In this document: positions 3,576-22,238 of the stretch, one piece after another
Numbering within the stretch: the first letter of the stretch is position 1
How the letters are laid out: each line of letters starts with the position of its first letter
Source of the DNA: Apostichopus japonicus
Taxonomy: Eukaryota; Echinodermata; Holothuroidea; Aspidochirotida; Stichopodidae
Assembly: GCF_037975245.1 (NCBI RefSeq)
Contig: NC_092568.1
Coordinates: forward strand, 38,032,501-38,096,500
Length of the DNA: 64,000 nt
Direction of reading: 5' to 3'
Made by a program: the position numbers and the translations under genes
The notes under the pieces: generated by a model
The model's input: the letters and a program-made list of their open reading frames with translations, nothing else
What the model was told of the DNA's origin: nothing
Database searches by the model: none

Positions 3576-3587
3576 ACGAGAACCGGT
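3576..3587 (-). repeat. Target-site duplication, LINE copy 1 (5' side)
   Basis: ACCGGTTCTCGT, equal to 5S nt 27-38. The partner copy lies outside the window. Confidence 0.85.
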
Positions 3588-3613
3588 ATATTCAACGTGA
3601 TATGGTCGTAGAC
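3576..3613 (-). pseudogene. 5S rRNA 5' fragment (nt 1-38) upstream of LINE copy 1
   Basis: The first 38 nt of a 5S gene, interrupted by LINE copy 1. The remainder of this gene would lie at the LINE 3' end, left of the window. The last 12 nt of the fragment (3576-3587) are the target-site duplication. The TATA box and start site remain upstream of the inserted element. Confidence 0.93.
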
Positions 3614-4342
3614 ATTAGAAAGATGAAATTTAAGCTTTTTATACCCGCCCGCCCCGAGACTTATTTTGCAAAGTTGAATATTCAACTCTAGACCACCTAT
3701 ATGGTTACTTATCCCATTAAACTAAACAATGTACATTGTGTTATATGACTTGAGAAGCTATATGGTAGCATATACGCCCGGATATGATTGCCCCGATGAC
3801 TGACGCACGCACGCACACTCACCGTACTGAGAGTCTGAAGCTAGCTACGTTCGTCCGACTTGTGAACAAACCTCTTAACATAGTGTTCGTACGCTGCTCA
3901 TGGGAAGCCTAAAGTGGTCTAAAATTGCCTCAATCGACCTAATTTCTGCATCACATTTACTTCCCTTTGTGTACTCCGACATCCAAGCCACAAAAAACGA
4001 GAGATTTTGTTTGAGAACATATCAAGAAAGATGTTCTCCTGTTTCTTTTCGGCACTTTTCCTGAGGGAGAACACTCGTGCAGCGTGCATGCATGCGGAAT
4101 GATATATAGCCCTAATGATACACTTGTCTCGAATTAAAGGGAGCTGGAGAAAAACTTGTGATTGCAATGACAGGACACAACAATAGTGGTATATCATGGC
4201 AAGTCAATGTCTTCAACGGTGGTGGTGGTGGGGGGGGGGATAGGGAGGGGGAAAAACTTTTCATAACAATGACAGGATAAAACAATAGTGACAAAGAAAT
4301 AAAGAAAGAAAGGGGTGCGGTTGTGGGTGAGGAAAAATGAAA
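3614..4342 (-). repeat. 5S non-transcribed spacer between LINE copies 1 and 2
   Basis: A normal array spacer of about 729 bp carrying, in 5S orientation, the T-rich terminator, the imperfect direct repeat, a C-tract (G on this strand) and the upstream palindromes and TATA box serving the fragment at 3576-3613. Its G-tract is followed by ATAGGGAGG rather than the commoner TTTGGGAGG. The same variant occurs near 10455, 22892 and 33119. No gene is seen. Confidence 0.9.
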
Positions 4343-4436
4343 AAGTCTACGGCACCTAGTATTCCCAGGCGGTCACCCATCCAAGTACTGACTAGGCTCG
4401 ACGCTGCTTGACTTCGGTGATCGGACGAGAACCGGT
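4343..4436 (-). pseudogene. 5S rRNA 3' fragment (nt 27-120) downstream of LINE copy 2
   Basis: The displaced 3' part of the 5S gene split by LINE copy 2, including the 12-bp target duplication. It keeps the whole internal control region (A box about nt 50-61, C box about nt 80-97) and the T-run terminator, but lacks nt 1-26 and cannot make a normal 5S RNA. Confidence 0.93.
4425..4436 (-). repeat. Target-site duplication, LINE copy 2 (3' side)
   Basis: ACCGGTTCTCGT directly after the poly(A) tail of copy 2. Matches 9792-9803, and can be extended by one C/G to 13 bp on both sides. Confidence 0.92.
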
Positions 4437-4453
4437 TTTTTTTTTTTTTTTTT
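4437..4453 (-). repeat. Poly(A) tail of LINE copy 2
   Basis: A run of T on the plus strand (A on the element strand) between element and target duplication. One further T at 4436 may belong to either. Confidence 0.9.
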
Positions 4454-4462
4454 ATTGACGGA

Positions 4463-4478
4463 AGAACCCACTGGTTCT
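4463..4478 (-). other. 3'-terminal hairpin of LINE copy 2
   Basis: Element strand reads AGAACC-AGTG-GGTTCT: a perfect 6-bp stem with an AGTG loop, about 10 nt before the poly(A). Family 1 has the same loop with a different stem that still pairs (10699-10716). Likely an RNA signal for recognition by the element's reverse transcriptase (inference). Confidence 0.65.
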
Positions 4479-4623
4479 CCGATTGAATGTACAGATATTA
4501 ACATGGTTACAAGAAATAAAGAAAGAGAATATATATAAAACTATAACAATAATACAACACTATCAATACAATCATGCACAACAATAAAAAAAGTAATCCT
4601 AGAATGGGGAAGGCATGAGAAAA

Positions 4624-7600
4624 TTAACTGTCAAACTTGTACTCGTAGGAGCCATCTTCAAGAGGATTGAGAATGACGTCACCTTGAGTAAACAACTCCC
4701 AAAATGTAGAAATGTCTTTTTTCTTTACAAAATAGTGGAATAAGAAATCGATTTTCTTTCGTAGTGAATTATGAAAGAAGTTTTGAATATTAATGTGTTT
4801 TTCTCCGTTCAGGAGGCTAACACGAGTGGTCCAAACAACTTTTTTGAAAGTGTTTAGAATAAAATCAATCGAAATTGTCTCATGCCTCCTATGATTGAGT
4901 TCCATACCTAAGATAGTAATTTGCCTCCATTTATCATTGTTGCTGATTTTACAGATTTTCTGAAGCTTCTTGATAATATCTCTCCAGAGAAGATTTACGG
5001 TTTTGCAATCGACAAAAAGATGCAAGACAGTTTCATTATGGTTCTTACATAAGGTACATAAAGGAGAGTCAACTAGCTTAAAAAGATACAACTTATCGTT
5101 ACAGAATAAAATATTATGAAGAATACGGAAATCGAGGTCACTATCGTGAAAAGCTTTTAGACCTTTGTAGATATTGGTCCACCTATGTTCAAAAGAGACA
5201 TCGTTAAAAACGTGTTTCCAGTGGATTTCGCCTTTTGGAATTGTTGAGACGGCCTCCCTAAGGAGATCAGTTGCATTCCTGACACTAACGGAGGACGCAT
5301 CTAGCGTGGTGTCACCACAAGAGAGGGTGAGTGAAAGTGACTCATTGTCATTTTGACTGACAATTTTATCGCCCGAATAGATTTGTTCGAGCCAATCTTT
5401 TGGAAAAGCCTTCAAAATAGATGTGACGTAATCAAATACATCATCAACATCAAGTTTACAAGTTGGGTTGGCCATAGTAATGGCTTCATGGATACCCTCC
5501 GCGGGAAGCCGTCTTGGGATCATTTCATACATAAGGTCGCCTACAAAAATAATACCACCTTCAATGAAATCTCTGTTAAAGAGGGTTTCGCCAGTTTCAT
5601 TTACAATAAATGGATTATGGAACAGCGGTTGCATAAGAATTTCTTCCCTGTTCACTGGAGGGCATAACTTTTTATCCGTTAGCCTTTTCCAGGCACTCAA
5701 CAACTCATCATAATACGGTAAAAGTTTTCTCATAGAATTGCTATGAGGTAAAATACGAAATACGTGTAAACCTAGTTTCATATAGTCATAATGGTTTAGA
5801 AAATAGAGCATTAAATCTTTTAACATCGGATTGATACTGTTGCTAAGTAGTTTACAGATGTACTTCATACGTAAAGCGTCTCTCTTTAGAAAAAGGTCAC
5901 AAAGGTTAAGGCCACCTTTGTCTACAGGTTGAAGAAGAACATTGTAGGATATGCCAGGTTTCTTACCTCCCCACATAAATTCGATAACACTTTCTTTCAA
6001 AGAGTCTCCTACCCATTTAGGGACCGGAATAATAGTAGCAAGATATGTCAGTCTTGAGACAACTAGAGAATTTACAACAAGAGCTCTGCCTTTAAAGGAG
6101 AGGTTCCGCCCTTTCCACCTCTTGAGAACATTGCAACAAGAGGCAGTCTTGGTTTTCCAGTTTTCTCTTTCAAGAGCATCCTTATCATTGCCGATACAAA
6201 CACCAAGCACTTCTATAAAATCGTTCCTAATCGGAAAATTGAACTCGTCTTTTCGTACTTTGCCCTTTCCGAGCACTAGTAACTCGGTTTTCTCTACATT
6301 ACACTTAGAGCCAGAGGCGCCTTCATACAGGTTAATAACATTTTGTACGGACTTAACACTAGAAGTATCAGAGAGAAAGAAAGTGGTATCATCTGCATGT
6401 TGAAACATTTTAGCTTCATGATGCATAAACTTAATACCAATTACACTCTTACTTTTGTAAATAGCGTCATGAAATGGTTCAGCAGATAATACATATAAAA
6501 TAGCAGAAATTGGACAACCCTGGCGAACCCCTCTCTGAATATGAAAAGTATCTGAAATATAACCATTGTGTTTAATACAGCCTTGAATATCGTTGTAGAG
6601 GATTTTAACCCAGTTAATTAAATTAGTACCGAAACCCATCCTTTGTAAAACATTAATAAGATATTCATGGTTTACTCGATCGAAGGCTTTTAATTGATCA
6701 ATTTTAAGAACATAGCCCTCCAGTTTGTTTTCGTTAACATAATTAATAATATTTCTCATAGCCAGAACATTGTCGGCAATATCTCTGCCGGGAACACAAC
6801 AGGTCTGGTCACTAGAGACAAGGCAATTGATAACCCTAGAGATTCTATTGGCCAGAGCCTTTGTGATTATTTTGTAGTCTGTGTTCAAAAGACTAATCGG
6901 TCTCCAATTCTTAAGTTTCCTCAAATCCCCTTTCTTGGGTATCAAAGTAATTAGGCCTGTTTTCATAGAATTACACATTTCATGTGTTTTGTAAATTTCT
7001 TTCGTCAGTTTGAGAAAAACCTCCCCCAATACATCCCAAAATTCCTTATAAAACTCAACAGTGAGTCCGTCTAAACCAGGGCTTTTACTCGACTCCATAT
7101 CAAGAAGTGATTTTTGGAGTTCTGTAGCCGAAATGTCCCCCTCACATGACTGAGAATCAGGTTCGGACAACGTTTTAGAAAGCTGGCTAAGTAATACCTC
7201 CCTCTGAATACTCACTGACGGTTCTGCGGTGTACAGCGTTTTGTAAAATCTGGCCTGTTCGTGGATAATGTCGTCTTGATCGTTAATGATCGCGCCCTCG
7301 TCGGTGAGAATCTGGCGCATTACTTTTTTGCTTTGTCGAGATTTTTCTAAATTGAGGAAAAATTTTGACGAACGTTCTCCTTCTTCGAACCACTTGATTC
7401 TCGATCTAAGCGCGGCTCCTCTGATATCTGGGCGGGTCGTCTCGTCTAGCTGAAATTCTAAATTCCGTAGCCTTGTAGTGTCGTAGTCTTGATATTTTTG
7501 CGCTTTCGCCCTTTCGTGGTTGATTGTTTCCTTAGTTTTCTTTGATGTGTACGCGAGAGTCTGCTTTTGACCTTGGTAAATTTGATTGCAGTCCTTTTTA

Positions 7601-8495
7601 GTGAATCTTTCAAAACGTCATACCACTGGAGGATATTATTGTCGTAACAAGTCTTCTGTTTTTCTCGCTCGATGAGATCTCTTATTTCCGAACAGAAGGA
7701 TGTGTCCTCGAGTATGGAGTTATTAAAGATCCATACACCGGGGCCCCTAGGAAAAAGGGTAAAGTCAAGTTTAAGTTCAACCATGTCGTGATCAGAATCG
7801 GGATAGCGAGAGATGGAGCATGATTTGACGTAGCGAACTAGCTGTTTGTTTAAAAGAAATCTATCAATCCTGGAAGCGGTTTTGTGGTTGCTGGCTGTTC
7901 TTGTAAATTGGATTAAAGAAGGGTGGCGCTCTCTCCAAATATCGACAAGCTCGTATTCCGTCATAATAAGTTTCAGAGATTTTCGAGAAGAGTCCGGGTT
8001 AGGTGTTGTTGGGTATTTATCCACGTAAGTATTAAGAACGGTATTGAAGTCTCCCGCTAGAATAATTGGTTCAGGCACGTTGCGGAGTTTTCTTGAAATA
8101 TCTTCTAGGAATTGTTTTCGTTCGCTCGGCGTGTTTGGAGCATAGATGTTAAAAACTGTAAAAGACTGTCCATCCACAGTAATACTTAATTTTAAAAAGC
8201 GACCGTTTATATCCGGTTCGAAGTGGTGTACATCGATATCGCTACCCTTCCTAATTAAACAACTCGTTCCCCTTCGTCTCGAGGGAGAATAGAAGGAAGA
8301 TAAAATATCGCCATCCCATTCAAGTTTGGCCTGGTCATGAATTGACTGGTCCCAAAAGGTTTCTTGTAATAAAACAAGGTCAAATTTGTTTTTAGAAACG
8401 TGAGAGAATAACCCTCTTCTTTTATCTTGATTGATCAGTCCGTTGCAATTTAGGCAGGCGAGTAAAAACATTATAACGGTGAGTGAAAAATACAT
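4624..8495 (-). pseudogene. LINE ORF2, family 2 copy 2, broken by one frameshift
   Basis: Same protein as the intact ORF2 of copy 4 (17058-20930), but missing one T in a TTT run at about 7524-7526. The N-terminal frame (7458-8495) covers the endonuclease and ends after 345 residues with a frameshifted tail. The rest continues in another frame, open from about 7525 down to 4624, with its first Met at 7320. It keeps the reverse transcriptase (SPGLDGLTVEF, DQTCCVPGRD, KAFDRVNH, RQGCP, HADD) and the CCHC finger. About 31 residues differ from copy 4 by eye, most of them in the C-terminal third. It starts 2 nt after the ORF1 stop (TAACGATG). The missing base could be a real mutation or a homopolymer sequencing error. 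Confidence 0.88.
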
Positions 8496-8497
8496 CG

Positions 8498-9592
8498 TTA
8501 ATGCTGGTCTAGTGATGGCTGGCGAGGTTGAAAATTACGTGCTTTGGCTAGGTTGGGTGTAGGGTCGGCTTTCTTTTTGTTGTTTTTCATTTTCCTCGTT
8601 TGGACAGTCCAATCGTCATCACTAGAGAGGTTCCGTTTCTGCGAGGTTGAGTTGTCTTCTTTCTCTGTGTTCTGTGTCGCTGGGTCTGTGGTTTCATTAT
8701 TTCTCGGTTTCGGTTGGGAGCTATTAATCTTTCGGCTTGGTTTGTTTTCGTTTTCTGCTGGGGTCTGTTTGTCTGTTTCGATCGTTTCACGTGGCTGGGG
8801 GTTGTCCGGGATATCTTGGATTGTTGTATTATCTTGTTCTGCGCAGGCCGAATCATTTGTTTCCATTTCTGAGGTATTGTTGTCTTCTTTGGGTGTAGGG
8901 GGAGTAGTAGGGCAGTCGAAACTTTTGTGCCCGAATTGCTGGCACCTGTAACATTTCACCCGCGGGCATTTACTTTCGCTGTGACCCTGCATACCGCATT
9001 CTTTGCAAGTATATTGCTTACACTCTCTCATGATATGGTCCGAGCTAAGGCAAATGTTGCATACCCGGGATTGTCCGTTATGCTTCAATCGAAGATGGAC
9101 TCCAGATATGAAAATGGAGTACGGAAGGCTCTTTGCGTTGGACGGGAGTTCTAACCTAATATATCTTATCCCGTTCTCTACATTGGGAAAGTCCTCATAG
9201 GTTTTGTGGGTCCATGCGCTCTTGAGTATGCACCCAAATTCTCTAAGCTTATCTGACAGTTCGTCGTCATCTATGAAAACTGGTACCCCAAACAAACTCA
9301 CAGTGAGTAGGTTCCTTGTTACCCCTCGTACTTCGTATCCTACACCATCAATCAGTACGCCAGCCTCCTGTAGAAGCTCTACATCTGTCGTTTCCTTAAG
9401 TGTTACGATCCATTGCCCGTTGGAATTCACACAACCGAGAATGTTTTCTTTCCCAATGTCATCAGATAGCGCGCGAAGGACATCACGGGCTTCAAATTTA
9501 TTATCGGTGATACGTACACTGTTGTTTTTCATAACCGCACAGCGTTTCTGTGTGCTGCTTTGAACAGCGGTAGTGGATTTCGCGGAATCCAT
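8498..9592 (-). CDS. LINE ORF1, family 2 copy 2: three-CCHC nucleic-acid-binding protein
   Basis: 364-residue ORF1 protein, identical to that of copy 4. It has a central RRM-like region (about residues 95-172, LLTVSLFGVP then LPYSIFISGVHLRLKH) followed by three CX2CX4HX4C knuckles at about 178-191, 196-209 and 214-227. A long polar tail rich in T, N, E, Q and K ends with a basic stretch (KMKNNKKK). The expected role is binding the element RNA and assembling the RNP. The stop TAA is followed after 2 nt by the ORF2 ATG, suggesting termination-reinitiation for ORF2. It lies in front of a frameshifted ORF2, so this copy could at most supply ORF1 in trans. Confidence 0.92.
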   Translation of the reverse strand: MDSAKSTTAVQSSTQKRCAVMKNNSVRITDNKFEARDVLRALSDDIGKENILGCVNSNGQWIVTLKETTDVELLQEAGVLIDGVGYEVRGVTRNLLTVSLFGVPVFIDDDELSDKLREFGCILKSAWTHKTYEDFPNVENGIRYIRLELPSNAKSLPYSIFISGVHLRLKHNGQSRVCNICLSSDHIMRECKQYTCKECGMQGHSESKCPRVKCYRCQQFGHKSFDCPTTPPTPKEDNNTSEMETNDSACAEQDNTTIQDIPDNPQPRETIETDKQTPAENENKPSRKINSSQPKPRNNETTDPATQNTEKEDNSTSQKRNLSSDDDWTVQTRKMKNNKKKADPTPNLAKARNFQPRQPSLDQH

Positions 9593-9791
9593 GCTCGTTG
9601 AGGTGAAGACCGCGTGCGTCGGAGACGCAGCGGAGTGACACGAAAAATGCAGTCAAAACACAAATTATTCACCAAAAATCCTAAATAGAACAACTAAAAT
9701 GTCCGCTGATCACAAACACATCAGCCGATGGCCACGGTTCCGAAAAAGAACGGAAGGAAAGGGGTAAAAAATACGAACAAACACGTGAACG

Positions 9792-9803
9792 ACGAGAACC
9801 GGT
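9792..9803 (-). repeat. Target-site duplication, LINE copy 2 (5' side)
   Basis: ACCGGTTCTCGT, identical to 4425-4436. The next base (C on the element strand) also matches the target. Confidence 0.92.
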
Positions 9804-10559: not shown

Positions 10560-10650
10560 AAGTCTACGGCACCTAGTATTCCCAGGCGGTCACCCATCCA
10601 AGTACTGACTAGGCTCGACGCTGCTTGACTTCGGTGATCGGACGAGAACC

Positions 10651-10653
<3 letters not shown>
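10560..10653 (-). pseudogene. 5S rRNA 3' fragment (nt 27-120) downstream of LINE copy 3
   Basis: The 3' piece of the 5S gene split by LINE copy 3; its partner is 16006-16043. The internal promoter and terminator are preserved behind the element's long A tail. Confidence 0.93.
10642..10653 (-). repeat. Target-site duplication, LINE copy 3 (3' side)
   Basis: ACCGGTTCTCGT abutting the poly(A) of copy 3. Matches 16006-16017. Confidence 0.92.

Positions 10654-10691
<38 letters not shown>
10654..10691 (-). repeat. Poly(A) tail of LINE copy 3
   Basis: About 38 T on the plus strand, clearly longer than the tails of copies 2 and 4. Consistent with a young insertion, although homopolymer length is error-prone. 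Confidence 0.9.
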
Positions 10692-10693
<2 letters not shown>

Positions 10694-10698
10694 TTGAC

Positions 10699-10716
10699 GG
10701 TAACCCACTGGTTACC
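10699..10716 (-). other. 3'-terminal hairpin of LINE copy 3
   Basis: Element strand GGTAACC-AGTG-GGTTACC: a perfect 7-bp stem with an AGTG loop, 8 nt from the poly(A). It has the same loop and position as in family 2, but a different stem that still pairs. Confidence 0.7.
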
Positions 10717-10814
10717 CATAAACTTTACAAGTACAAAAATTAAATATTATGATCAAACTGAAAAGAGATAAACATCAAGTTAAGCAAGTCAAAAACAAAG
10801 TTAAAAAGAAAAGT

Positions 10815-13800
10815 TCACTGGTCTAATGTATATACATAGGAGTCATTGTCTGCCTCACACGACGTCGGAATGTCATTTTGACTGAACGTTTCCCAAAATC
10901 TGTCAATCTTATTTTTGCTTCTCAAGGAATTGTAAACAATCTTGAGTTTCTGCTGCACTGAGTTGTGAAAGAATCTTTCCAAATCGACAGGACGCTCAAG
11001 ATTTATGACACTCACTCTGCTATTCCAGACAACGTTTTTGTAGCAATTGAGGAGAAAATCAAACAAGAGGTTACTTTGTTTGTTCGCCGATTTGTTTGTT
11101 TCTGGTTCACAGTCTCCGAAGAGAGTGACCTTCCTCCATCGCTGGACGTCGTGTGAGGCGTTGACACGTGAAAGCTTATCTATAAGTCGTCTCCAAACAG
11201 GATAGGTTATATTACAATCTAGAAAGAGGTGGGAAGTGGTTTCTACCTCGGACTTACAAAATGTACAAAGAGGTGAATCAATCATTTTACACACATACAT
11301 CTTATGATTCGTAAAAAGAACATTGTGTCTGATCTTAAAATCTATGTCGGCATCACTAAACAACTTAAAACCCGAGTACACACTCTTCCAAATTTTGTTA
11401 AAATCGAGCTCTGGGTAGATCTTTAACCAGTACACTTCTCCAATGGGTTTGACGGTAGCGCGTTGGTGAAACAGTTGAATCGCGCTTTTTGTGTTAAGTG
11501 TGGTTGAACTAACCCAGTAATTTTCTCTCTCGCCTTGAAAATCCAACTGAAAGCTCTCCTCGTTGTCAATGGCAACAAGGGTGTCGCTTTCTAGAATTGT
11601 CGGGAGCCAGTGATCGGGGAGTGCTTTGCACAGTTTGTCGGTTAATTCTCTCACTTCGTCAATGGTCATCGAATTATCCGGATCACTTAGCAAAATGAGC
11701 TCATGAATTGCCTCACTAGGCATTCTTCTCGGCAATATTTCGTACATAAGGTCCCTTACACAGAGAATTCCCCCCGAAATGAAAGACTTATCAAGAAACA
11801 TTTTACCTTTCGAATCCCGTAGAAGGTGATTATGAAAGAGGGGTTGGGACAGAATTTCCTCCCTGTTGTCAGGTGGGCGGAGTCTGTCCTCGGTCAGCTT
11901 TCGCCAAGCAAGTAACATTTCCCGGACATAACCTGGTAATTTACGTAATGACTTAAAGTCCGGTAACATTTTCAAAACTTGCAGCCCCATGTTCATGTTT
12001 TCATACTGGTTAAAGTTATAAACAAGTAAAGCTTTCAACATTTCATTGATTTCGTTTCTTTGAATTTTGCCAATAATTTTTAATCTGAGTGCATCTCTTC
12101 TCTGTTTGAGGTCAAAAAGATTGAGTCCCCCTTTCTCAACGGGGAGCGTTAACACATCGTAACTAATGAGGTGTTTTCCATGACCCCAAAAAAAATCAAT
12201 AACATTCTTACGATAATCAGTACAAACCCAATCTGGTACACAGACAACGGTCGCCATATAAATAAAACGTGACGCCACCAGGGCGTTTACAACAAGCGTT
12301 TTGCCTTTGAAGGACAATTTGCGCCCCTTCCAGCGCTTCAGAACCGTTCCGCGCTTAGCACTAAGTTCTTCCCAATTTTCTCTTTCGACAATGCGGTCGT
12401 CATTCCCTACCGCAACCCCAAGTACCGTTAGGTAATCATATCTCACGGGGAATGGATAAGTCATTTTGAGATTTTTGGATTTGCCAATTAGGAGCAACTC
12501 AGTTTTATCGTAATTACATTTAGATCCTGATGCTCTTTCATAATTTTTGATAGTTTGGAAGACGTGATCAATGCTTTCGGTATTGGCTAGCATAAAAGTG
12601 GTATCGTCAGCATGCTGAAACATGCGAGGCTCAAAATGGAGAAATTTGATACCCGAAATATGGTTGTTCTTATAAATTGCTTCGCGGAACGGTTCTGCAC
12701 TAATTACATACAACAGTGCCGAAATAGGGCACCCTTGCCTCACACCTCTTTTGATTTCAAAGATATTAGACAAGTAACCGTTATGCTTAATATGACTGTT
12801 GATATCTGTGTACAAAATTGCAACCCAGTTACGAAAATACTGGCCGAAACCTACTTTCTTCAAGACATTAAACAAATACTGGTGATCAACCCTATCGAAG
12901 GCCTTTAATTGATCAATTTTGAGGAGTAAACCGTCACAATTTGTTTGATTTACGTAACGGATAATATTACGAATAACCATAATATTATCAGCAATGTCTC
13001 TTCCAGGAATGCAACAGGTCTGGTCACTAGAAACAATTGAACTTATAACTTTTGAAATTCTGTTAGCTAAAGCTTTCGTAATGATTTTATAATCAATATT
13101 TAGGAGGCTAATTGGTCTCCAATTTGAAAGTTTCCTAAGGTCCCCTTTTTTGGGAATAAGAGAAATCATACCTGTTTTCATGGAATCGCACATCTCGTTT
13201 GATTCAAAAATAGCGCTACAAATACGAATAAGAATAGGTCCAAGCACATCCCAAAAATGTTTAAAAAATTCAACAGTCAGCCCATCAAGTCCAGGGCTTT
13301 TATTAGTTTTCATTGCAACGAGGGCATTAGAAAGTTCCTCTAAGGTGATCTCTTCTTCACACAACTTGATTTCCTCTTCCGAAAGAGTTTTGTCCAAATG
13401 GTGCAAAAATTCACGCTGAATATTTTCCTGAGTGTGTTCGAGCGAATAAAGATTTTTATAAAATAAGGCCTGCTCACGAAGAATTAATTCTTGATCCGTG
13501 ACGATTTCACCTCTGTCCGTAAGAACCGATCTCATTACTTTCTTTTTTTGTCTCGAGGTCTCTAGGTTTAGAAAGAATTTCGTCGACTTCTCACCTTCCT
13601 CATACCACAGTACCTTGGAACGAATAGCTGCCCCGTTAATTTCGTGCCGCAGTAAAACATTAAGACGGCTACGCAGTTCGAGAAGCCTTGTGGTGTCGTA
13701 ATCACCAAATTTGTGAGCTTTAATTTGTTCGTAATTTATCTTCTTCAGCAGCAGCTTTTTCTCTTTTTCACGCCTCGATTTTTGGCGTTTGCCGAATGTA

Positions 13801-14726
13801 GCACTCCTAATTCTAATCTCCTTTTTAAGGTTGTCATACCATAATTTAAGTGCTGTAGAGTCAGAATGCGACGTATTTAACCAACTGTCCAAAATAAATT
13901 GTCTGATTCCTTGGCAAAAAGTATCGTCTTCTAAAAAGGAATTGTTGAAAATCCATGTACCCGGACCTCTAGGAATTAGAGTAAGGTCAAGGTATAACTC
14001 CACAATATCGTGGTCTGACGCTGGGTAATGCGAAATTTCGCATTTAACTACGTGCGGTAAAAGTTCTTTACTAATTAAAAATCTGTCAATCCTGGATCCC
14101 GAAGACATGTTACTAGATGTACGCGTAAACTGAATTTTCGAGGGATGTTTATCCCTCCATACATCAATCAAATTAAATTTGTCCATGAGATCTTTAAGGA
14201 CTTTTCTTGAAGAGTCCGGTCGAGGGCCGGGTGGAAACCTGTCTTGGTATGGGTTAATTACATTGTTAAAATCCCCGGTGAGCACAACAGGTCCGTGACA
14301 GGAGGTAATAATTCTGTCTAAATCCGAAAAGAAAGCTTTACGCTCCGCCGGCACATTGCACGGCGCATATATATTAATTACACTAATTATCTTGCCATCA
14401 ATATCTATCTCCAGAACTTGTGTCCTCCCTTTGTAAGGAGTTGTATGGGAAATAACATCGAAATCACTATTATGTCTAAATAAGGAGGCAGTGCCTCTTC
14501 TTCTTGCGTCAGGGAAATTAGAAAACAAGATTTCCCCTTCCCAATCGAGATTTGCCGCTTTAGAAATATCGTCGTCCCAAAACGTTTCTTGAAGGAGCGT
14601 TAAATCATAATTGTTCTTTCTTAACAATGCAAATAAATCTGTCCTTTTTTCTCTACCGACCAAGCCATTACAATTGAGTGTGGCGAGCTTGATCATAAGT
14701 ATAAGTCCAATTAGACAGTAATACAT
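10815..14726 (-). CDS. LINE ORF2, family 1 copy 3: endonuclease-reverse transcriptase (intact)
   Basis: The 1,303-residue polyprotein that nicks the 5S target and copies element RNA onto it. APE-type endonuclease: LNCNGL near 18, catalytic Glu in LLQET near 47, INIYAPC near 118, GDFN near 151-154, RIDRF near 212, SDH near 237-239. Reverse transcriptase: SPGLDGLTVEF near 477, NWRPISLLN near 535, DQTCCIPGRDI near 568, KIDQLKAFDRVDH near 603, RQGCP near 663, HADD at 705-708. A C-terminal zinc finger CX2CX8HX4C lies near 1154-1171. I chose the ATG at 14726 because it aligns with the family 2 start and overlaps a TAA (TAATG). The frame is open to an upstream ATG at 14813, which would add 29 residues. 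The usual aromatic before ADD is His here. Confidence 0.92.
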   Translation of the reverse strand: MYYCLIGLILMIKLATLNCNGLVGREKRTDLFALLRKNNYDLTLLQETFWDDDISKAANLDWEGEILFSNFPDARRRGTASLFRHNSDFDVISHTTPYKGRTQVLEIDIDGKIISVINIYAPCNVPAERKAFFSDLDRIITSCHGPVVLTGDFNNVINPYQDRFPPGPRPDSSRKVLKDLMDKFNLIDVWRDKHPSKIQFTRTSSNMSSGSRIDRFLISKELLPHVVKCEISHYPASDHDIVELYLDLTLIPRGPGTWIFNNSFLEDDTFCQGIRQFILDSWLNTSHSDSTALKLWYDNLKKEIRIRSATFGKRQKSRREKEKKLLLKKINYEQIKAHKFGDYDTTRLLELRSRLNVLLRHEINGAAIRSKVLWYEEGEKSTKFFLNLETSRQKKKVMRSVLTDRGEIVTDQELILREQALFYKNLYSLEHTQENIQREFLHHLDKTLSEEEIKLCEEEITLEELSNALVAMKTNKSPGLDGLTVEFFKHFWDVLGPILIRICSAIFESNEMCDSMKTGMISLIPKKGDLRKLSNWRPISLLNIDYKIITKALANRISKVISSIVSSDQTCCIPGRDIADNIMVIRNIIRYVNQTNCDGLLLKIDQLKAFDRVDHQYLFNVLKKVGFGQYFRNWVAILYTDINSHIKHNGYLSNIFEIKRGVRQGCPISALLYVISAEPFREAIYKNNHISGIKFLHFEPRMFQHADDTTFMLANTESIDHVFQTIKNYERASGSKCNYDKTELLLIGKSKNLKMTYPFPVRYDYLTVLGVAVGNDDRIVERENWEELSAKRGTVLKRWKGRKLSFKGKTLVVNALVASRFIYMATVVCVPDWVCTDYRKNVIDFFWGHGKHLISYDVLTLPVEKGGLNLFDLKQRRDALRLKIIGKIQRNEINEMLKALLVYNFNQYENMNMGLQVLKMLPDFKSLRKLPGYVREMLLAWRKLTEDRLRPPDNREEILSQPLFHNHLLRDSKGKMFLDKSFISGGILCVRDLMYEILPRRMPSEAIHELILLSDPDNSMTIDEVRELTDKLCKALPDHWLPTILESDTLVAIDNEESFQLDFQGERENYWVSSTTLNTKSAIQLFHQRATVKPIGEVYWLKIYPELDFNKIWKSVYSGFKLFSDADIDFKIRHNVLFTNHKMYVCKMIDSPLCTFCKSEVETTSHLFLDCNITYPVWRRLIDKLSRVNASHDVQRWRKVTLFGDCEPETNKSANKQSNLLFDFLLNCYKNVVWNSRVSVINLERPVDLERFFHNSVQQKLKIVYNSLRSKNKIDRFWETFSQNDIPTSCEADNDSYVYTLDQ

Positions 14727-14861
14727 TATCGGTTCGCAGGTGTGAACAATCTTGCCGTACTTGTATTGGGCACAAACTTCTTTTTGTTTTGCTTCGTTCT
14801 GACCACCTGCCATGTGGTCTCATTCACCGATAATTCTTCTCCACTCGACTCTCTCCCTCGT

Positions 14862-15818
14862 TTACCCGTCTCGCTTACTGTATCGACTTCTGCTGTGGTA
14901 TTTATGGGGCTGCTCGTACTTGTTTCTTCTTTCTCTTCTGGTTGTGTAGGACTGCTTTTGCTTAACGTTTTTTTCAGTATTTGTAGACTCCGGTTCTACA
15001 GATTCAGTAGGGTCAGTACAGGGCGGGGGGTCAGGAACGGCGTCGGTAGTCTGAGGGTTCACAGAGTGATCGTTTTGCGACCCCTCCTCCATCTTTGTCG
15101 CATCGCTGTCTTTTGCTTCACAGTGAAAACTTTTATGTCCACGTCCTTGGCATTTGTAACATTTCACTTTGGGACACTTGTTTTCAGAGTGTCCTTGCTG
15201 GTTACACTCCTTGCAAACGTATTGTGCACATTCTCTCATCAAATGGTTTTCCCCCAGACATAAATTACACACACGAGTTTGTCCGTTATGCTTTAATCTC
15301 AGGTGGCTGCCGGAAACCAAAATTGAGTACGGCAGACTCTTCTTGTTCGATGGGAGTTCAATACGGGCGTAGCGAATCCCATTTTCGACCGTAGGATGTT
15401 CCTCATAAGTTTTATGTGTCCATTCACTTTTCATGGCGCAACCGTAAGCCACTAACTTTTCCGAGAGTTCCTCATCAGAAATGAAAGCAGGAACGCCAAA
15501 TAAACTCACTGTAATCAAGCTCTTGGTGACTCCTCTAACATCACACGGTTTCCCAGCGATTACAAGACCCGTATTCTGCAGTAATTCTGCGTCACTCTTC
15601 GACTTAATGGTTAGCACCCACTCTCCTCCTACCTTAACACAACCAAGAATATTTTCTACTCCAATGTCCTCCACTGCGGCACCCAGCACGTCTAGTGCGC
15701 TAAACGTGTGGTCGACGATCTTCACACTGTTCTCTCGTAACTCACTGTACACACCGGTACCATCGCTGCCCGCTCTCACACGTGAGGCGGGGTCAGCCAT
15801 TGTTCCTACCGCTACCAA
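14862..15818 (-). CDS. LINE ORF1, family 1 copy 3: three-CCHC nucleic-acid-binding protein, C terminus probably shifted
   Basis: Same 318-residue product as copy 1: RRM-like region about 100-178, then zinc knuckles at about 184-197, 202-215 and 220-233. Compared with the 364-residue family 2 ORF1, homology is lost after the A7 run at 14968-14974. It resumes in the +1 frame (SETGKR, TTWQVVRTKQNKKKF) and would end in a TAA at 14726-14728 that overlaps the ORF2 ATG. The expected ancestral length is then near 363. A -1 slip at this A_AAA_AAC-like run reads straight into a TAA, so ordinary -1 recoding would not restore the tail. A one-base insertion fixed before copies 1 and 3 separated is most likely. 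The knuckles are unaffected. Confidence 0.88.
   Translation of the reverse strand: MVAVGTMADPASRVRAGSDGTGVYSELRENSVKIVDHTFSALDVLGAAVEDIGVENILGCVKVGGEWVLTIKSKSDAELLQNTGLVIAGKPCDVRGVTKSLITVSLFGVPAFISDEELSEKLVAYGCAMKSEWTHKTYEEHPTVENGIRYARIELPSNKKSLPYSILVSGSHLRLKHNGQTRVCNLCLGENHLMRECAQYVCKECNQQGHSENKCPKVKCYKCQGRGHKSFHCEAKDSDATKMEEGSQNDHSVNPQTTDAVPDPPPCTDPTESVEPESTNTEKNVKQKQSYTTRRERRNKYEQPHKYHSRSRYSKRDG
14968..14974 (-). other. A7 run where family 1 ORF1 changes frame (copy 3)
   Basis: Counterpart of 2538-2544. The same homopolymer length in both family 1 copies argues against an isolated read error. Confidence 0.6.
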
Positions 15819-16005
15819 AGAGGCAGGCGATAAACGTTATTTTTTCAACTTGTCTGAATAGAAAGGTTTTCCAGGTAAATGAATAAACAAGTAGTCCACA
15901 ACGGTCAGAACATAGTTGCAATCCTGACAGACACTTTTTGAAGTAGAAAAAACGGCTCAGAACGGCCAAAACAGTGAAAAATCGAGAGCACAGAAAAACA
16001 CGTCT

Positions 16006-16017
16006 ACGAGAACCGGT
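16006..16017 (-). repeat. Target-site duplication, LINE copy 3 (5' side)
   Basis: ACCGGTTCTCGT, identical to 10642-10653. Confidence 0.92.
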
Positions 16018-16773: not shown

Positions 16774-16867
16774 AAGTCTACGGCACCTAGTATTCCCAGG
16801 CGGTCACCCATCCAAGTACTGACTAGGCTCGACGCTGCTTGACTTCGGTGATCGGACGAGAACCGGT
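16774..16867 (-). pseudogene. 5S rRNA 3' fragment (nt 27-120) downstream of LINE copy 4
   Basis: The 3' piece of the 5S gene split by LINE copy 4; partner 22227-22264. The internal control region is complete. Confidence 0.93.
16856..16867 (-). repeat. Target-site duplication, LINE copy 4 (3' side)
   Basis: ACCGGTTCTCGT after the poly(A) of copy 4. Matches 22227-22238. Confidence 0.92.
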
Positions 16868-16888
16868 TTTTTTTTTTTTTTTTTTTTT
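16868..16888 (-). repeat. Poly(A) tail of LINE copy 4
   Basis: About 21 T on the plus strand, preceded on the element strand by CGTCAATAAA, so an AATAAA motif runs into the tail. Confidence 0.9.
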
Positions 16889-16897
16889 ATTGACGGA

Positions 16898-16913
16898 AAA
16901 ACCCACTGGTTCT
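16898..16913 (-). other. 3'-terminal hairpin of LINE copy 4
   Basis: Element strand AGAACC-AGTG-GGTTTT. It differs from copy 2 by one base in the stem, but a G-U pair keeps the stem closed. Confidence 0.6.
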
Positions 16914-17057
16914 CCGATTGAATGTACAGATATTAACATGGTTACAAGAAATAAAGAAAGAGAATATATATAAAACTATAACAATAATACAACACTATCG
17001 ATACAATCATGCACAACAATAAAAGAGTAATCCTAGATTGGGGAAGGCAAGAGAAAA

Positions 17058-20000
17058 TTAACTGTCAAACTTGTACTCGTAGGAGCCATCTTCAAGAGGA
17101 TTGAGAATGACGTCACCTTGAGTAAACAACTCCCAAAATGTAGAAATTTCTTTTTTCTTTACAAAATAGTGGAATAAGAAATCGATTTTCTTTCGTAGTG
17201 AATTATGAAAGAAGTTTTGAATATTAATGTGCTTTTCCCCGTTCAGGAGGCTAACACGAGTGGTCCAAACAACTTTTTTGAAAGTGTTTAGAATAAAATC
17301 AATCGAGATTGTCTCATTCCTCTTATAATTGAGTTCCATACCTAAGATTGTTATTTGCCTCCATTTATCATTGTTGTTGATTTTACAGATTTTCTGAAGC
17401 TTCTTGATAATATCTCTCCAGAGAAGATTTACGGTTTTGCAATCGACAAAAAGATGCAAGACAGTTTCATTATGGTTCTTACATAAGGTACATAAAGGAG
17501 AGTCAACTAGCTTAAAAAGATACAACTTATCGTTACAGAATAAAATATTATGAAGAAGGCGGAAATCTAGGTCACTATCGTGAAAAGCTTTTAGACCTTT
17601 GTAGACATTGGTCCACCTATGTTCAAAAGAGATATCGTTAAAAACGTGTTTCCAGTGTATTTCTCCTTTTGGGATTGTTGAGACGGCCTCCCTTAGGAGA
17701 TCAGTTGCATTCCTGACACTAACGGTGGATGCATCTAGCGTGGTATCACCACAAGAGAGAGTGAGTGAAAGTGACTCATTGTCATTTTGACTAACAATTT
17801 TATCGCCCGAATAGATTTGTTCAAGCCAATCTTTTGGGAAAGCCTTCAAAATAGATGTGACGTAATCATGTACGTCATCAATATTAAGTTTACAATTTGG
17901 GTTGGCCATAGTAATGGCTTCGTGGATACCCTCTGCGGGAAGCCGTCTTGGGATCATTTCATACATAAGATCGCCTACAAAAATAATACCACCTTCAATG
18001 AAATCTCTGTTAAAGAGGGTATCGTAAGTGTCATTTATAATAAATGGATTATGGAACAGCGGTTGCATAAGAATTTCATCCCTGTTCACTGGTGGGCATA
18101 ACTTTTTATCGGTTAGCTTTTTCCAGGCACTCAACATCTCATAATAATACGGTAAAAGTTTTCTCATAGAATTGCTATGAGGTAAAATACGGAACACGTG
18201 TAAACCTAGTTTCATATATTCATAATGATTCAGAAAATAGAGCATTAAACTTTTTAACATCGGATTGATACTGTTGCTAAGTAGTTTACAGATGTACTTC
18301 ATACGTAAAGCGTCTCTTTTTAGAAAAATGTCACAAAGGTTAAGGCCACCTTTGTCTACAGGTTGAAGTAGAACATTGTAGGATATGCAAGGTTTCTTAC
18401 CTCCCCACATAAATTCGATAACACTTTCTTTCAAAGAGTCTCCTACCCATTTAGGGACCGGAATAATAGTAGCAAGATATGTCAGTCTTGAGACAACTAG
18501 AGAATTTACAACAAGAGCTCTGCCTTTAAAGGAGAGGTTCCGCCCTTTCCACCTCTTGAGAACATTGCAACAAGAGGCAGTCTTGGTTTTCCAGTTTTCT
18601 CTTTCAAGAGCATCCTTATCATTGCCGATACAAACACCAAGCACTTCTATAAAATCGTTCCTAATAGGAAAGTTGAACTCGTCTTTTCGTACTTTGCCCT
18701 TTCCGAGCACTAGTAACTCGGTTTTCTCTACATTACACTTAGAGCCAGAGGCGCCTTCATACAGGTTAATAACATTTTGTACGGACTTAACACTAGAAGT
18801 ATCAGAGAGAAAGAAAGTGGTATCATCTGCATGTTGAAACATTTTAGCTTCATGATGCATAAACTTAATACCAACTATACTCTTACTTTTGTAGATAGCG
18901 TCATGAAATGGTTCAGCAGATAATACATATAAAATAGCAGAAATTGGACAACCCTGGCGAACCCCTCTCTGAATATGAAAAGCATCTGAAATATAACCAT
19001 TGTGTTTAATACAGCCTTGAATATCGTTGTAAAGGATTTTAACCCAGTTAATTAAAGTAGTACCGAAACCCATCCTTTGTAAAACATTAATAAGATATTC
19101 ATGGTTTACACGATCGAAGGCTTTTAATTGATCAATTTTAAGAACATAGCCCTCCAGTTTGTTTTCGTTAACATAATTAATAATATTTCTCATAGCCAGA
19201 ACATTGTCGGCAATATCTCTGCCGGGAACACAACAGGTCTGGTCACTAGAGACAAGGCAATTGATAACCCTAGAGATTCTATTGGCCAGAGCCTTTGTGA
19301 TTATTTTGTAGTCTGTGTTCAAAAGACTAATCGGTCTCCAATTCTTAAGTTTCCTCAAATCCCCTTTCTTGGGTATCAAAGTAATTAGGCCTGTTTTCAT
19401 AGAATTACACATTTCATGTGTTTTGTAAATTTCTTTCGTCAGTTTGAGAAAAACCTCCCCCAATACATCCCAAAATTCCTTATAAAACTCAACAGTGAGT
19501 CCGTCTAAACCAGGGCTTTTACTCGACTCCATATCAAAAAGTGATTTTTGGAGTTCTGTAGCCGAAATGTCCCCCTCACATGACTGAGAATCAGGTTCGG
19601 ACAACGTTTTAGAAAGCTGGCTAAGTAATACCTCCCTCTGAATACTCACTGACGGTTCTGCGGTGTACAGCATTTTGTAAAATCTGGCCTGTTCGTGGAT
19701 AATATCGTCTTGATCGTTAATGATCGCGCCCTCGTCGGTGAGAATCTGGCGCATTACTTTTTTGCTTTGTCGAGATTTTTCTAAATTGAGGAAAAATTTT
19801 GACGAACGTTCTCCTTCTTCGAACCACTTGATTCTCGATCTAAGCGCGGCTCCTCTGATATCTGCGCGGGTCGTCTCGTCTAGCTGAAATTCTAAATTCC
19901 GTAGCCTTGTAGTGTCGTAGTCTTGATATTTTTGCGCTTTCGCCCTTTCGTGGTTGATTTGTTTCCTTAGTTTTCTTTGATGTGTACGCGAGAGTCTGCT

Positions 20001-20930
20001 TTTGACCTTGGTAAATTGGATTGCAGTCCTTTTTAGTGAATCTTTCAAAACGTCATACCACTGGAGGATATTATTGTCGTAACAAGTCTTCTGTTTTTCT
20101 CGCTCGATGAGATCTCTTATTTCCGAACAGAAGGATGTGTCCTCGAGTATGGAGTTATTAAAGATCCATACACCGGGGCCCCTAGGAAAAAGGGTAAAGT
20201 CAAGTTTAAGTTCAACCATGTCGTGATCAGAATCGGGATAGCGAGAGATGGAGCATGATTTGACGTAGCGAACTAGCTGTTTGTTTAAAAGAAATCTATC
20301 AATCCTGGAAGCGGTTTTGTGGTTGCTGGCTGTTCTTGTAAATTGGATTAAAGAAGGGTGGCGCTCTCTCCAAATATCGACAAGCTCGTATTCCGTCATA
20401 ATAAGTTTCAGAGATTTTCGAGAAGAGTCCGGGTTAGGTGTTGTTGGGTATTTATCCACGTAAGTATTAAGAACGGTATTGAAGTCTCCCGCTAGAATAA
20501 TTGGTTCAGGCACGTTGCGGAGTTTTCTTGAAATATCTTCTAGGAATTGTTTTCGTTCGCTCGGCGTGTTTGGAGCATAGATGTTAAAAACTGTAAAAGA
20601 CTGTCCATCCACAGTAATACTTAATTTTAAAAAGCGACCGTTTATATCCGGTTCGAAGTGGTGTACATCGATATCGCTACCCTTCCTAATTAAACAACTC
20701 GTTCCCCTTCGTCTCGAGGGAGAATAGAAGGAAGATAAAATATCGCCATCCCATTCAAGTTTGGCCTGGTCATGAATTGACTGGTCCCAAAAGGTTTCTT
20801 GTAATAAAACAAGGTCAAATTTGTTTTTAGAAACGTGAGAGAATAACCCTCTTCTTTTATCCTGATTGATCAGTCCGTTGCAATTTAGGCAGGCGAGTAA
20901 AAACATTATAACAGTGAGTGAAAAATACAT
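17058..20930 (-). CDS. LINE ORF2, family 2 copy 4: endonuclease-reverse transcriptase (intact)
   Basis: 1,290-residue polyprotein. The APE-type endonuclease spans about residues 10-245: LNCNGL near 15-20, LLQET with Glu45, FNIYAP near 115, GDFN 148-151, RIDRF near 209, SDH 234-236. The reverse transcriptase spans about 470-780: SPGLDGLTVEF, NWRPISLLN, DQTCCVPGRDI, KIDQLKAFDRVNH, RQGCP and HADD at 700-703. The thumb and connection region follow, then a C-terminal zinc finger (SPLCTLCKNHNETVLHLFVDC order, CX2CX8HX4C). The ATG lies 2 nt after the ORF1 stop, so translation probably depends on reinitiation. By eye it is about half identical to family 1 ORF2 in the conserved blocks. His replaces the usual Tyr/Phe before ADD. 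Confidence 0.93.
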   Translation of the reverse strand: MYFSLTVIMFLLACLNCNGLINQDKRRGLFSHVSKNKFDLVLLQETFWDQSIHDQAKLEWDGDILSSFYSPSRRRGTSCLIRKGSDIDVHHFEPDINGRFLKLSITVDGQSFTVFNIYAPNTPSERKQFLEDISRKLRNVPEPIILAGDFNTVLNTYVDKYPTTPNPDSSRKSLKLIMTEYELVDIWRERHPSLIQFTRTASNHKTASRIDRFLLNKQLVRYVKSCSISRYPDSDHDMVELKLDFTLFPRGPGVWIFNNSILEDTSFCSEIRDLIEREKQKTCYDNNILQWYDVLKDSLKRTAIQFTKVKSRLSRTHQRKLRKQINHERAKAQKYQDYDTTRLRNLEFQLDETTRADIRGAALRSRIKWFEEGERSSKFFLNLEKSRQSKKVMRQILTDEGAIINDQDDIIHEQARFYKMLYTAEPSVSIQREVLLSQLSKTLSEPDSQSCEGDISATELQKSLFDMESSKSPGLDGLTVEFYKEFWDVLGEVFLKLTKEIYKTHEMCNSMKTGLITLIPKKGDLRKLKNWRPISLLNTDYKIITKALANRISRVINCLVSSDQTCCVPGRDIADNVLAMRNIINYVNENKLEGYVLKIDQLKAFDRVNHEYLINVLQRMGFGTTLINWVKILYNDIQGCIKHNGYISDAFHIQRGVRQGCPISAILYVLSAEPFHDAIYKSKSIVGIKFMHHEAKMFQHADDTTFFLSDTSSVKSVQNVINLYEGASGSKCNVEKTELLVLGKGKVRKDEFNFPIRNDFIEVLGVCIGNDKDALERENWKTKTASCCNVLKRWKGRNLSFKGRALVVNSLVVSRLTYLATIIPVPKWVGDSLKESVIEFMWGGKKPCISYNVLLQPVDKGGLNLCDIFLKRDALRMKYICKLLSNSINPMLKSLMLYFLNHYEYMKLGLHVFRILPHSNSMRKLLPYYYEMLSAWKKLTDKKLCPPVNRDEILMQPLFHNPFIINDTYDTLFNRDFIEGGIIFVGDLMYEMIPRRLPAEGIHEAITMANPNCKLNIDDVHDYVTSILKAFPKDWLEQIYSGDKIVSQNDNESLSLTLSCGDTTLDASTVSVRNATDLLREAVSTIPKGEIHWKHVFNDISFEHRWTNVYKGLKAFHDSDLDFRLLHNILFCNDKLYLFKLVDSPLCTLCKNHNETVLHLFVDCKTVNLLWRDIIKKLQKICKINNNDKWRQITILGMELNYKRNETISIDFILNTFKKVVWTTRVSLLNGEKHINIQNFFHNSLRKKIDFLFHYFVKKKEISTFWELFTQGDVILNPLEDGSYEYKFDS

Positions 20931-20932
20931 CG

Positions 20933-22027
20933 TTAATGCTGGTCTAGTGATGGCTGGCGAGGTTGAAAATTACGTGCTTTGGCTAGGTTGGGTGTAGGGT
21001 CGGCTTTCTTTTTGTTGTTTTTCATTTTCCTCGTTTGGACAGTCCAATCGTCATCACTAGAGAGGTTCCGTTTCTGCGAGGTTGAGTTGTCTTCTTTCTC
21101 TGTGTTCTGTGTCGCTGGGTCTGTGGTTTCATTATTTCTCGGTTTCGGTTGGGAGCTATTAATCTTTCGGCTTGGTTTGTTTTCGTTTTCTGCTGGGGTC
21201 TGTTTGTCTGTTTCGATCGTTTCACGTGGCTGGGGGTTGTCCGGGATATCTTGGATTGTTGTATTATCTTGTTCTGCGCAGGCCGAATCATTTGTTTCCA
21301 TTTCTGAGGTATTGTTGTCTTCTTTGGGTGTAGGGGGAGTAGTAGGGCAGTCGAAACTTTTGTGCCCGAATTGCTGGCACCTGTAACATTTCACCCGCGG
21401 GCATTTACTTTCGCTGTGACCCTGCATACCGCATTCTTTGCAAGTATATTGCTTACACTCTCTCATGATATGGTCCGAGCTAAGGCAAATGTTGCATACC
21501 CGGGATTGTCCGTTATGCTTCAATCGAAGATGGACTCCAGATATGAAAATGGAGTACGGAAGGCTCTTTGCGTTGGACGGGAGTTCTAACCTGATATATC
21601 TTATCCCGTTCTCTACATTGGGAAAGTCCTCATAGGTTTTGTGGGTCCATGCGCTCTTGAGTATGCACCCAAATTCTCTAAGCTTATCTGACAGTTCGTC
21701 GTCATCTATGAAAACTGGTACCCCAAACAAACTCACAGTGAGTAGGTTCCTTGTTACCCCTCGTACTTCGTATCCTACACCATCAATCAGTACGCCAGCC
21801 TCCTGTAGAAGCTCTACATCTGTCGTTTCCTTAAGTGTTACGATCCATTGCCCGTTGGAATTCACACAACCGAGAATGTTTTCTTTCCCAATGTCATCAG
21901 ATAGCGCGCGAAGGACATCACGGGCTTCAAATTTATTATCGGTGATACGTACACTGTTGTTTTTCATAACCGCACAGCGTTTCTGTGTGCTGCTTTGAAC
22001 AGCGGTAGTGGATTTCGCGGAATCCAT
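20933..22027 (-). CDS. LINE ORF1, family 2 copy 4: three-CCHC nucleic-acid-binding protein
   Basis: 364 residues. The N-terminal region (about 25-90) resembles family 1 around NSVRITDNKFEARDVL and ENILGCV. A central RRM-like fold is inferred from LLTVSLFGVP and the following alternation to about residue 172. Three CCHC knuckles follow (178-191, 196-209, 214-227), then a low-complexity polar tail and a basic C terminus. Its likely role is coating the element RNA. Stop and ORF2 start are arranged as TAACGATG. Identical in protein sequence to copy 2 although the two elements differ elsewhere, which points to a recent common source or conversion of the 5' half. Confidence 0.92.
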   Translation of the reverse strand: MDSAKSTTAVQSSTQKRCAVMKNNSVRITDNKFEARDVLRALSDDIGKENILGCVNSNGQWIVTLKETTDVELLQEAGVLIDGVGYEVRGVTRNLLTVSLFGVPVFIDDDELSDKLREFGCILKSAWTHKTYEDFPNVENGIRYIRLELPSNAKSLPYSIFISGVHLRLKHNGQSRVCNICLSSDHIMRECKQYTCKECGMQGHSESKCPRVKCYRCQQFGHKSFDCPTTPPTPKEDNNTSEMETNDSACAEQDNTTIQDIPDNPQPRETIETDKQTPAENENKPSRKINSSQPKPRNNETTDPATQNTEKEDNSTSQKRNLSSDDDWTVQTRKMKNNKKKADPTPNLAKARNFQPRQPSLDQH

Positions 22028-22226
22028 GCTCGTTGAGGTGAAGACCGCGTGCGTCGGAGACGCAGCGGAGTGACACGAAAAATGCAGTCAAAACACAAAT
22101 TATTCACCAAAAATCCTAAATAGAACAACTAAAATGTCCGCTGATCACAAACACATCAGCCGATGGCCACGGTTTCGAAAAAGAACGGAAGGAGAGGGGT
22201 AAAAAATACGAACAAACACGAGAACG

Positions 22227-22238
22227 ACGAGAACCGGT
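22227..22238 (-). repeat. Target-site duplication, LINE copy 4 (5' side)
   Basis: ACCGGTTCTCGT, identical to 16856-16867. Confidence 0.92.

Follow-up and report, generated by a model that had tools for sequence, protein, structure and literature searches.

Two diverged LINE families at the same nucleotides of the 5S rRNA gene in Apostichopus japonicus

Two diverged LINE families, which we call A and B, are joined to the same nucleotides of the 5S rRNA gene in Apostichopus japonicus. We consider it probable, at roughly 0.7, that they are old sister families of the L1 group with an APE-type endonuclease and candidate members of the Tx1 clade, that they enter 5S genes by TPRT at a site inherited from their common ancestor, and that a block holding one element of each family was afterwards duplicated. 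LINEs that insert into 5S genes are already known from Mutsu; what is of interest here is the diverged pair at one site, its sister families in satellites, the cross-hits between the two kinds of target and a clustered difference in the endonuclease. A single genome holds two same-site families at ~50% divergence, five sister families at another site and rare cross-hits.

Insertion joints and element structure in the 5S array

The window, by which we mean the whole stretch of 64,000 nt that was analysed (GCF_037975245.1, NC_092568.1:38,032,501-38,096,500; the genome comprises 671.6 Mb in 35 contigs), lies within a large 5S rRNA array with a unit of ~852 bp. All 51 Rfam matches in the window are to 5S, and the three low-scoring ones are copies split by a LINE. 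Four LINE copies, A1, B1, A2 and B2, lie at the left edge on the minus strand, in the same direction as the 5S gene (Table 1). With 5S nucleotides numbered from the Rfam matches, the 5' end of each of the four elements meets nt 38 and its 3' end meets nt 27 via poly(A). All four 5' joints read GAATAT, then ACCGGTTCTCGT, then the element, and the three 3' joints within the window read poly(A), then ACCGGTTCTCGT, then CCGATC; the 3' joint of A1 lies upstream of the window (C8:38030716) and is identical in form. These readings bear out the first-pass annotation, which had described four such joints with nt 27-38 duplicated, and specify the duplication as 11 or 12 nt, since nt 27 is an A and is indistinguishable from poly(A). 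Genome-wide, the poly(A)-5S joint pattern has 17 matches against none for its control, and the exact 34-base empty site occurs 2,651 times against none for the reversed control.

Table 1. Features of the window, with positions counted from its first nucleotide
Feature	Position	Strand	Remark
Copy A1, 5' part (ORF1 and part of ORF2), family A	1..3575	-	Continues upstream to C8:38030716
5S nt 27-38 (ACCGGTTCTCGT), A1 5' target-site copy	3576..3587	-	
5S nt 27-38, B1 3' target-site copy	4425..4436	-	A27 indistinguishable from poly(A)
Copy B1, family B, 5,355 nt	4437..9791	-	ORF2 frame broken; identical to upstream B copy
5S nt 27-38, B1 5' target-site copy	9792..9803	-	
5S nt 27-38, A2 3' target-site copy	10642..10653	-	
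Copy A2, family A, 5,352 nt	10654..16005	-	ORF1 and ORF2 open
A2 3' hairpin, GGGTAACC-AGTG-GGTTACCG	10698..10717	-	Ahead of poly(A)
A2 ORF2, 1,332 aa	10818..14813	-	APE-type endonuclease, reverse transcriptase, C-terminal zf-RVT slightly below cut-off (Pfam)
A2 endonuclease hairpin window, HPSKIQFTRTSSNMSSG	14097..14147	-	A/B-only residues concentrated
A2 ORF1, 312 aa from first Met	14865..15800	-	Three CCHC motifs by eye
5S nt 27-38, A2 5' target-site copy	16006..16017	-	
5S nt 27-38, B2 3' target-site copy	16856..16867	-	
Copy B2, family B, 5,359 nt	16868..22226	-	ORF1 and ORF2 open
B2 3' hairpin, GGAGAACC-AGTG-GGTTTTTC	16896..16915	-	Ahead of poly(A)
B2 ORF2, 1,290 aa from first Met	17061..20930	-	APE-type endonuclease, reverse transcriptase, zf-RVT slightly below cut-off (Pfam)
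B2 endonuclease hairpin window, HPSLIQFTRTASNHKTA	20310..20360	-	
B2 ORF1, 364 aa from first Met	20936..22027	-	CCHC zinc knuckle, zf-CCHC (Pfam)
5S nt 27-38, B2 5' target-site copy	22227..22238	-	
First of the uninterrupted 5S genes, an empty target	22996..23114	-	Rfam

A and B are L1-group non-LTR retrotransposons with an APE-type endonuclease and a reverse transcriptase in one ORF. Both PF03372 and PF00078 are present in ORF2 of each family, and the zf-RVT match falls slightly below its cut-off of 27.5 bits (27.2 in A2, 26.8 in B2). The best match of B ORF2 among solved structures is L1 ORF2p, at 299.7 bits versus 72.3 bits for the best R2, and L1-EN is the first structural match of an AlphaFold model of the B endonuclease (mean pLDDT 70, with the hairpin itself below 50). 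An element of the R2 type, with a restriction-like endonuclease, is excluded because the endonuclease is APE-type and N-terminal, not restriction-like and C-terminal. Members of the Tx1 clade, to which Mutsu belongs, have two ORFs, the first with zinc knuckles. Two ORFs are present in both families here, and the knuckles are indicated in B by zf-CCHC and in A by eye and by the 54% identity of its ORF1 to B ORF1 over 286 aa, A ORF1 having no match in Pfam. Together with the strict insertion into a multicopy sequence described below, this makes A and B likely candidates for that clade. The wide difference between the families that the first-pass annotation had noted is evident in ORF1 and again in ORF2, which is 52% identical between them. 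One scan of viral contigs for relatives returned none.

The same annotation had spoken of four insertions. The four joints are real, but they stand for only two, perhaps three, events: a block of ~12.43 kb, consisting of A, a 5S unit, B and a 5S unit, is tandemly duplicated at 99.27% identity over 22,955 bp and extends upstream of the window. A1 and A2 differ by four poly(A) bases in 5,352 and are otherwise the same; a third B copy, which lies shortly upstream of the window, matches B1 at every position. This repeat and the near-identity of the copies rule out four independent insertions. B1 and B2 differ in 88 of 5,360 columns, 76 of the 88 within the 3' half. The window thus records one A event and one B event, with perhaps another B insertion, or instead a conversion, and then duplication.

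Genome-wide placement of families A and B

Exact tail patterns applied to the whole genome gave four A tails, on contigs C8 and C17, and 14 B tails, on C8, C17 and C22. Every one lies in a 5S array (A 4/4, B 14/14), and no A or B tail outside 5S genes was found among these exact-pattern tails genome-wide, so that the copies with unrelated flanks for which the first-pass annotation had suggested looking did not appear. All four A tails are joined at nt 27, as are 12 of the 14 B tails (one of the 12, L037, in a 5S gene carrying a single-base variant), giving 16 of 18 exact joints for the two families together. One of the two off-site B tails is broken by a run of C and has one additional C ahead of nt 28; the other is joined at nt 29. 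Searches with the ORF2 proteins of the two families are consistent with 5S-only placement among the 35 of 4,488 and 36 of 4,470 first-look candidates that were scored. Since the tail patterns were exact and the scored candidates few, diverged copies elsewhere could escape; the exact B count itself omits at least one divergent copy, at C17:22648041, whose degenerate tail adjoins 5S.

The arrays on C17 and C22 are 5S by Rfam and belong to other types than that on C8, the C17 unit measuring 195 bp and the C17-type target reading GACTAT where the C8-type reads GAATAT. As different 5S types have been hit, the insertions on separate contigs are independent. Judged by distinct truncations, leaders or targets, there have been at least seven B events (the window block, L036, L016, L025, L026, the L034/L035 pair and L037), and C8-type and C17-type targets imply at least two A events. 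These insertions bear directly on the idea that array homogenisation alone, with one A and one B insertion copied by unequal exchange, produced what we see. The idea draws on the 99.27% identity of the 12.43-kb repeat and on the sameness of A1 and A2 (save poly(A)) and of B1 and the upstream B; it accounts for how many copies the window holds, not for the coincidence of A and B, and the insertions on C17 and C22, which sit in other 5S types with truncations and flanks of their own, refute it as a full account. We regard it as highly improbable.

At the 5' end, all five full-length A loci, three of which are tandem duplicates, are joined exactly after nt 38, and all six matches to the B 5' pattern, L036 among them, are joined to nt 38. 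Four truncated events have their joints at nt 36-38 with a two-base overlap (one event), near nt 30-31 (two) and at nt 36 (one, of lineage G). L036 and L037 carry an additional 5S stretch, nt 20-38, between target and element, with one added T in L037. The target gene of L037 is C17-type and its additional stretch C8-type; such a donor-type piece suggests a template RNA whose start point lay within the interrupted 5S gene or ahead of it, and the extra stretch in both loci is most simply read as a leader that this RNA took over from its donor 5S gene. The two are sisters in the tree (97/99), so the leader may have been gained once and inherited by L037 from an L036-like parent. A 5S leader may also aid precise 5' joining through homology.

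Locati et al. reportedly found in 2017, for maternal and somatic 5S of zebrafish, that differences between 5S sequences gave different target sites. Zebrafish 5S types are tied to different non-LTR elements in the excerpt of PMC5513064 available to us; the sites of the zebrafish elements differ by 5S type, whereas A and B use one site across several types. Jockey-like LINEs tied to satellite DNA occur in the 5S arrays of Tribolium freemani and are, like A and B, LINEs of such arrays, but the available portion of the source (PMC11202950) does not link them to one 5S nucleotide. The closest likeness by description, on which the comparison is based, is to Mutsu, a LINE of ~5.5 kb with two ORFs in zebrafish 5S genes (PMC11202950, PMC3706591; both in excerpt): A and B are likewise inserted in 5S, with two ORFs and lengths of 5,352 and 5,359 nt.

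Sister families, satellites and shared use of nt 27

Protein searches of the same genome recovered families C (six copies in the tree), D, E, F and G, with 46-54% identity to A/B ORF2. Trees were computed from 20 ORF2 rows drawn from 30 loci (L028-L057), after L029 and L035 had been set aside as near-duplicates, and L032 and L051-L057 as broken or truncated. With human L1 as outgroup, A and B form one branch (99/100), as do D and F (98/95) and E and G (95/86). When the endonuclease and the outgroup are left out, A and B still stand together against the rest (100/99), which rules out their kinship as an effect of selection on that domain; the D+F and E+G branches are then not recovered, and G joins C (82/94). 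In these trees the two families therefore do not fall in different clades, an outcome that the first-pass annotation had held to be damaging, but group together against five other families. A root on the A branch, on the B branch, or on the branch that separates the pair from the other families is not rejected (AU p 0.086, 0.144 and 0.176), and with the root unfixed 5S-first and satellite-first histories are indistinguishable.

Directly after the tail, 14 of 16 C-G loci have a tandem repeat, and in L051 and L057 a repeat lies upstream of the element; its unit is 165 bp at the measured C, E and G loci and 156 bp at the measured D and F loci. We take these satellites to be tRNA-like on the strength of stretches resembling an A box and a B box. 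ARAGORN, with the bacterial code, found no tRNA genes in seven of the satellite loci, and Rfam returned nothing at gathering score in four of those seven. Of 19 satellite joints, 11 (two of them showing single-base variants) lie before (A)TGGCTTGGCGCACTG and six before TTGGCGCACTG. Likeness in primary sequence between the 5S and satellite targets was considered and rejected, as 514, 1744 and 1440 of 2000 shuffles gave equally good alignments. Dewa, placed in the spacer of zebrafish tRNA-Leu by the available part of PMC3706591, also uses a tRNA-related repeat, but the C-G elements sit in the tRNA-like part itself.

5S nt 27 is not private to A and B. Of 53 C/D/E/G-type tails (reversed control, 11), 26 were placed: 17 show the exact satellite pattern, which lists 19 tails in all with two outside the 53; four more were read as satellite (L038, L040, L042, L052); and five, representing about four events, are at 5S nt 27, all on C17. 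As the gapped pattern gave 128 matches in its reversed control versus five, that count by itself is meaningless, and the result rests on the five places, each read individually, at which poly(A) is joined to CCGGTTCTCGTC. A D copy at 5S matches L038, which resides in a satellite, at 96.0% of 1,527 columns, and a truncated G insertion at 5S, present in two copies, matches L048, likewise in a satellite, at 96.1% of 431 columns. Lineages H and I have one 5S tail each and are known from 301 bases each. At least six lineages (A, B, D, G, H and I) thus use nt 27, and only A and B do so exclusively in this sample. With the poly(A) of D, G, H and I at nt 27, and D and G also in satellites, some of this use must be separate or crossed over.

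The arrival of D, G, H and I at nt 27 (5/53 tails) amounts to another route to the site, and speaks against the explanation by inheritance.

Could all six lineages have converged separately on a favoured spot, nt 27 being easily nicked or presented by Pol III chromatin? Convergence would fit the single 3' joint shared by six lineages with distinct 3' UTRs, and the residence of D and G otherwise in tandem repeats that contain segments resembling the A and B boxes. It also has a precedent in Keno and Utopia, which, according to the available part of PMC4640811, arrived independently at the same nucleotides of the U2 snRNA gene. That pair resembles A and B in being two families at the same nucleotides of one gene; it is a clear case of convergence, with unrelated endonucleases, whereas A and B have a common endonuclease type and ancestry. 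Moreover, A and B copies elsewhere were not found, the two stand together in the tree, the D, G, H and I cases are rare (about four events), and the 5S and satellite sites have no alignable similarity beyond chance. We judge convergence unlikely. With neither family encountered outside 5S in these searches, and both on one branch, shared ancestry of their site choice is the simpler reading. The first-pass annotation had proposed that the site was either kept from a common ancestor or reached by convergence; shared ancestry is favoured for A and B, but the proposal was too narrow, as D, G, H and I are at nt 27 too.

Endonuclease hairpin, 3' hairpin and a possible insertion route

A comparison of endonuclease columns, with one row for each of seven families, gave 20 columns common to A and B alone, seven of which fall inside a 19-column window (HPSxIQFT--RTxSN and on). 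The clustering has a hypergeometric p of 2e-4, with no correction for the 21 possible family pairs; each of the remaining 20 pairs has between 0 and 2 columns there, and two of the seven columns reflect one shared length difference. Spacing between a conserved T and S is nine residues in A, B and human L1 and 11 in C-G. These columns align with the L1 β-hairpin loop 193-202, which, in the excerpt of PMC8565326 available to us, enters the DNA minor groove, in an endonuclease whose contacts are mostly to the DNA backbone. Because earlier L1 loop swaps left nicking specificity unchanged, according to the same excerpt, the hairpin may be only part of target reading. Human L1 resembles A and B in its APE endonuclease fold, reverse transcriptase and poly(A) tail; its target is there given as the 5'-TTTTT/AA consensus, not one gene (PMC8565326), whereas A and B are 5S-bound and have a conserved 3' hairpin. 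The set of families narrows the candidate target reader to a hairpin of 17-19 residues and bears on site choice by APE-type LINE endonucleases, for which swaps between these natural relatives offer a direct test.

The loop also bears on a further alternative, overlapping with our preferred reading, in which 5S specificity is ancestral to A-I and C-G later moved to tRNA-like satellites with a residual taste for 5S. The use of both targets by D and G agrees with this, as do the hairpin loop of nine residues in A/B and human L1 (11 in C-G) and the roots on the A or B branch that were not rejected; but every root is weakly supported and the L1 outgroup is very distant (branch 6.6), and we entertain this history only tentatively.

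Directly before the A-rich tail, all nine lineages (A-I) have a hairpin whose stem is 8 bp long and whose loop is, in most of them, AGTG. Across 12 sequences, 93.8% of cells are paired, and the covariation score is 0.434; shuffles average 0.223, with none of 500 reaching the real value, and sliding gives no more than 0.144. Three pairs have changed on both sides, a number reached by 106 of 500 shuffles and hence not above chance. The conservation of this element suggests that the lineages offer the reverse transcriptase a common RNA handle.

Under inherited site choice with TPRT, the reading that we prefer, the ORF2 endonuclease would nick the bottom strand between 5S nt 26 and 27, and the poly(A) end, with the conserved hairpin just before it, would prime reverse transcription at the nick. 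The top strand would be cut after nt 38. Site choice would have passed to both families from their common ancestor, with the target read in part by the endonuclease β-hairpin, and at least one lineage would use a template RNA whose start lies within the interrupted 5S gene or ahead of it. Duplication of the A+B block inside the array would afterwards have produced the four copies that the window contains.

The same material may possibly record a switch of specificity within one genome, a scenario that we consider rather doubtful. A single LINE radiation with one covarying 3' hairpin would have split into the 5S-only A and B and the satellite families C-G, the split being marked by the clustered change in the endonuclease β-hairpin; D and G (H and I by tail) would now be crossing to the identical 5S phosphodiester, and some templates with a donor-5S leader would reflect transcription entering from the host gene.

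These insertions also give a view of the load that LINEs place on 5S arrays: the three tail patterns locate 23 tails in 5S (four A, 14 B and five others) against the 2,651 empty exact sites.

5S array types across contigs

The genome contains at least three types of 5S array, carried on the contigs C8, C17 and C22. By analogy with zebrafish, these could represent stage-specific 5S types.

Array types and coordinates of features
Feature	Location	Property
5S array of the window	C8	unit ~852 bp
5S array at loci L021 and L031	C17	195-bp unit
5S array at locus L027	C22	spacer ~80% like that of C8
Strand switch of the window array	window 53811-54828	minus-strand 5S matches up to 53810, plus-strand from 54829
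Uninterrupted 5S copy	window 59101-59218	118 nt; 100.6 bits vs 108.5 bits for the rest of the array
Three B-family tails (L025-L027)	C22:1668299-1676138	nt 27 joint in each

Among the 5S matches in the window, the gap at the strand switch measures 1,018 bases, compared with a usual spacer of ~733.

LINE insertions within 5S arrays

The three poly(A)-bearing B tails on C22 lie inside 8 kb, and two of them are truncated at different points, so this small 5S array has been struck repeatedly. On C17, two 3-kb stretches (L023 and L024) separated by 17.7 kb are 99.8% identical and carry an identical truncated insertion of the related family G; the pair is a segmental duplication rather than two separate insertion events.

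Two B copies (L036 and L037) bear an additional 5S stretch, nt 20-38, at their 5' ends. At L037, the surrounding 5S gene is of the C17 type (GACTAT), yet the additional piece is of the C8 type (GAATAT).

tRNA-like satellites as LINE hosts

The flanks of L038-L053 and L057 consist of tandem tRNA-like satellites, with units of 165 and 156 bp, which are spread over many contigs and house five LINE families. The 165-bp type has two favoured LINE joints.
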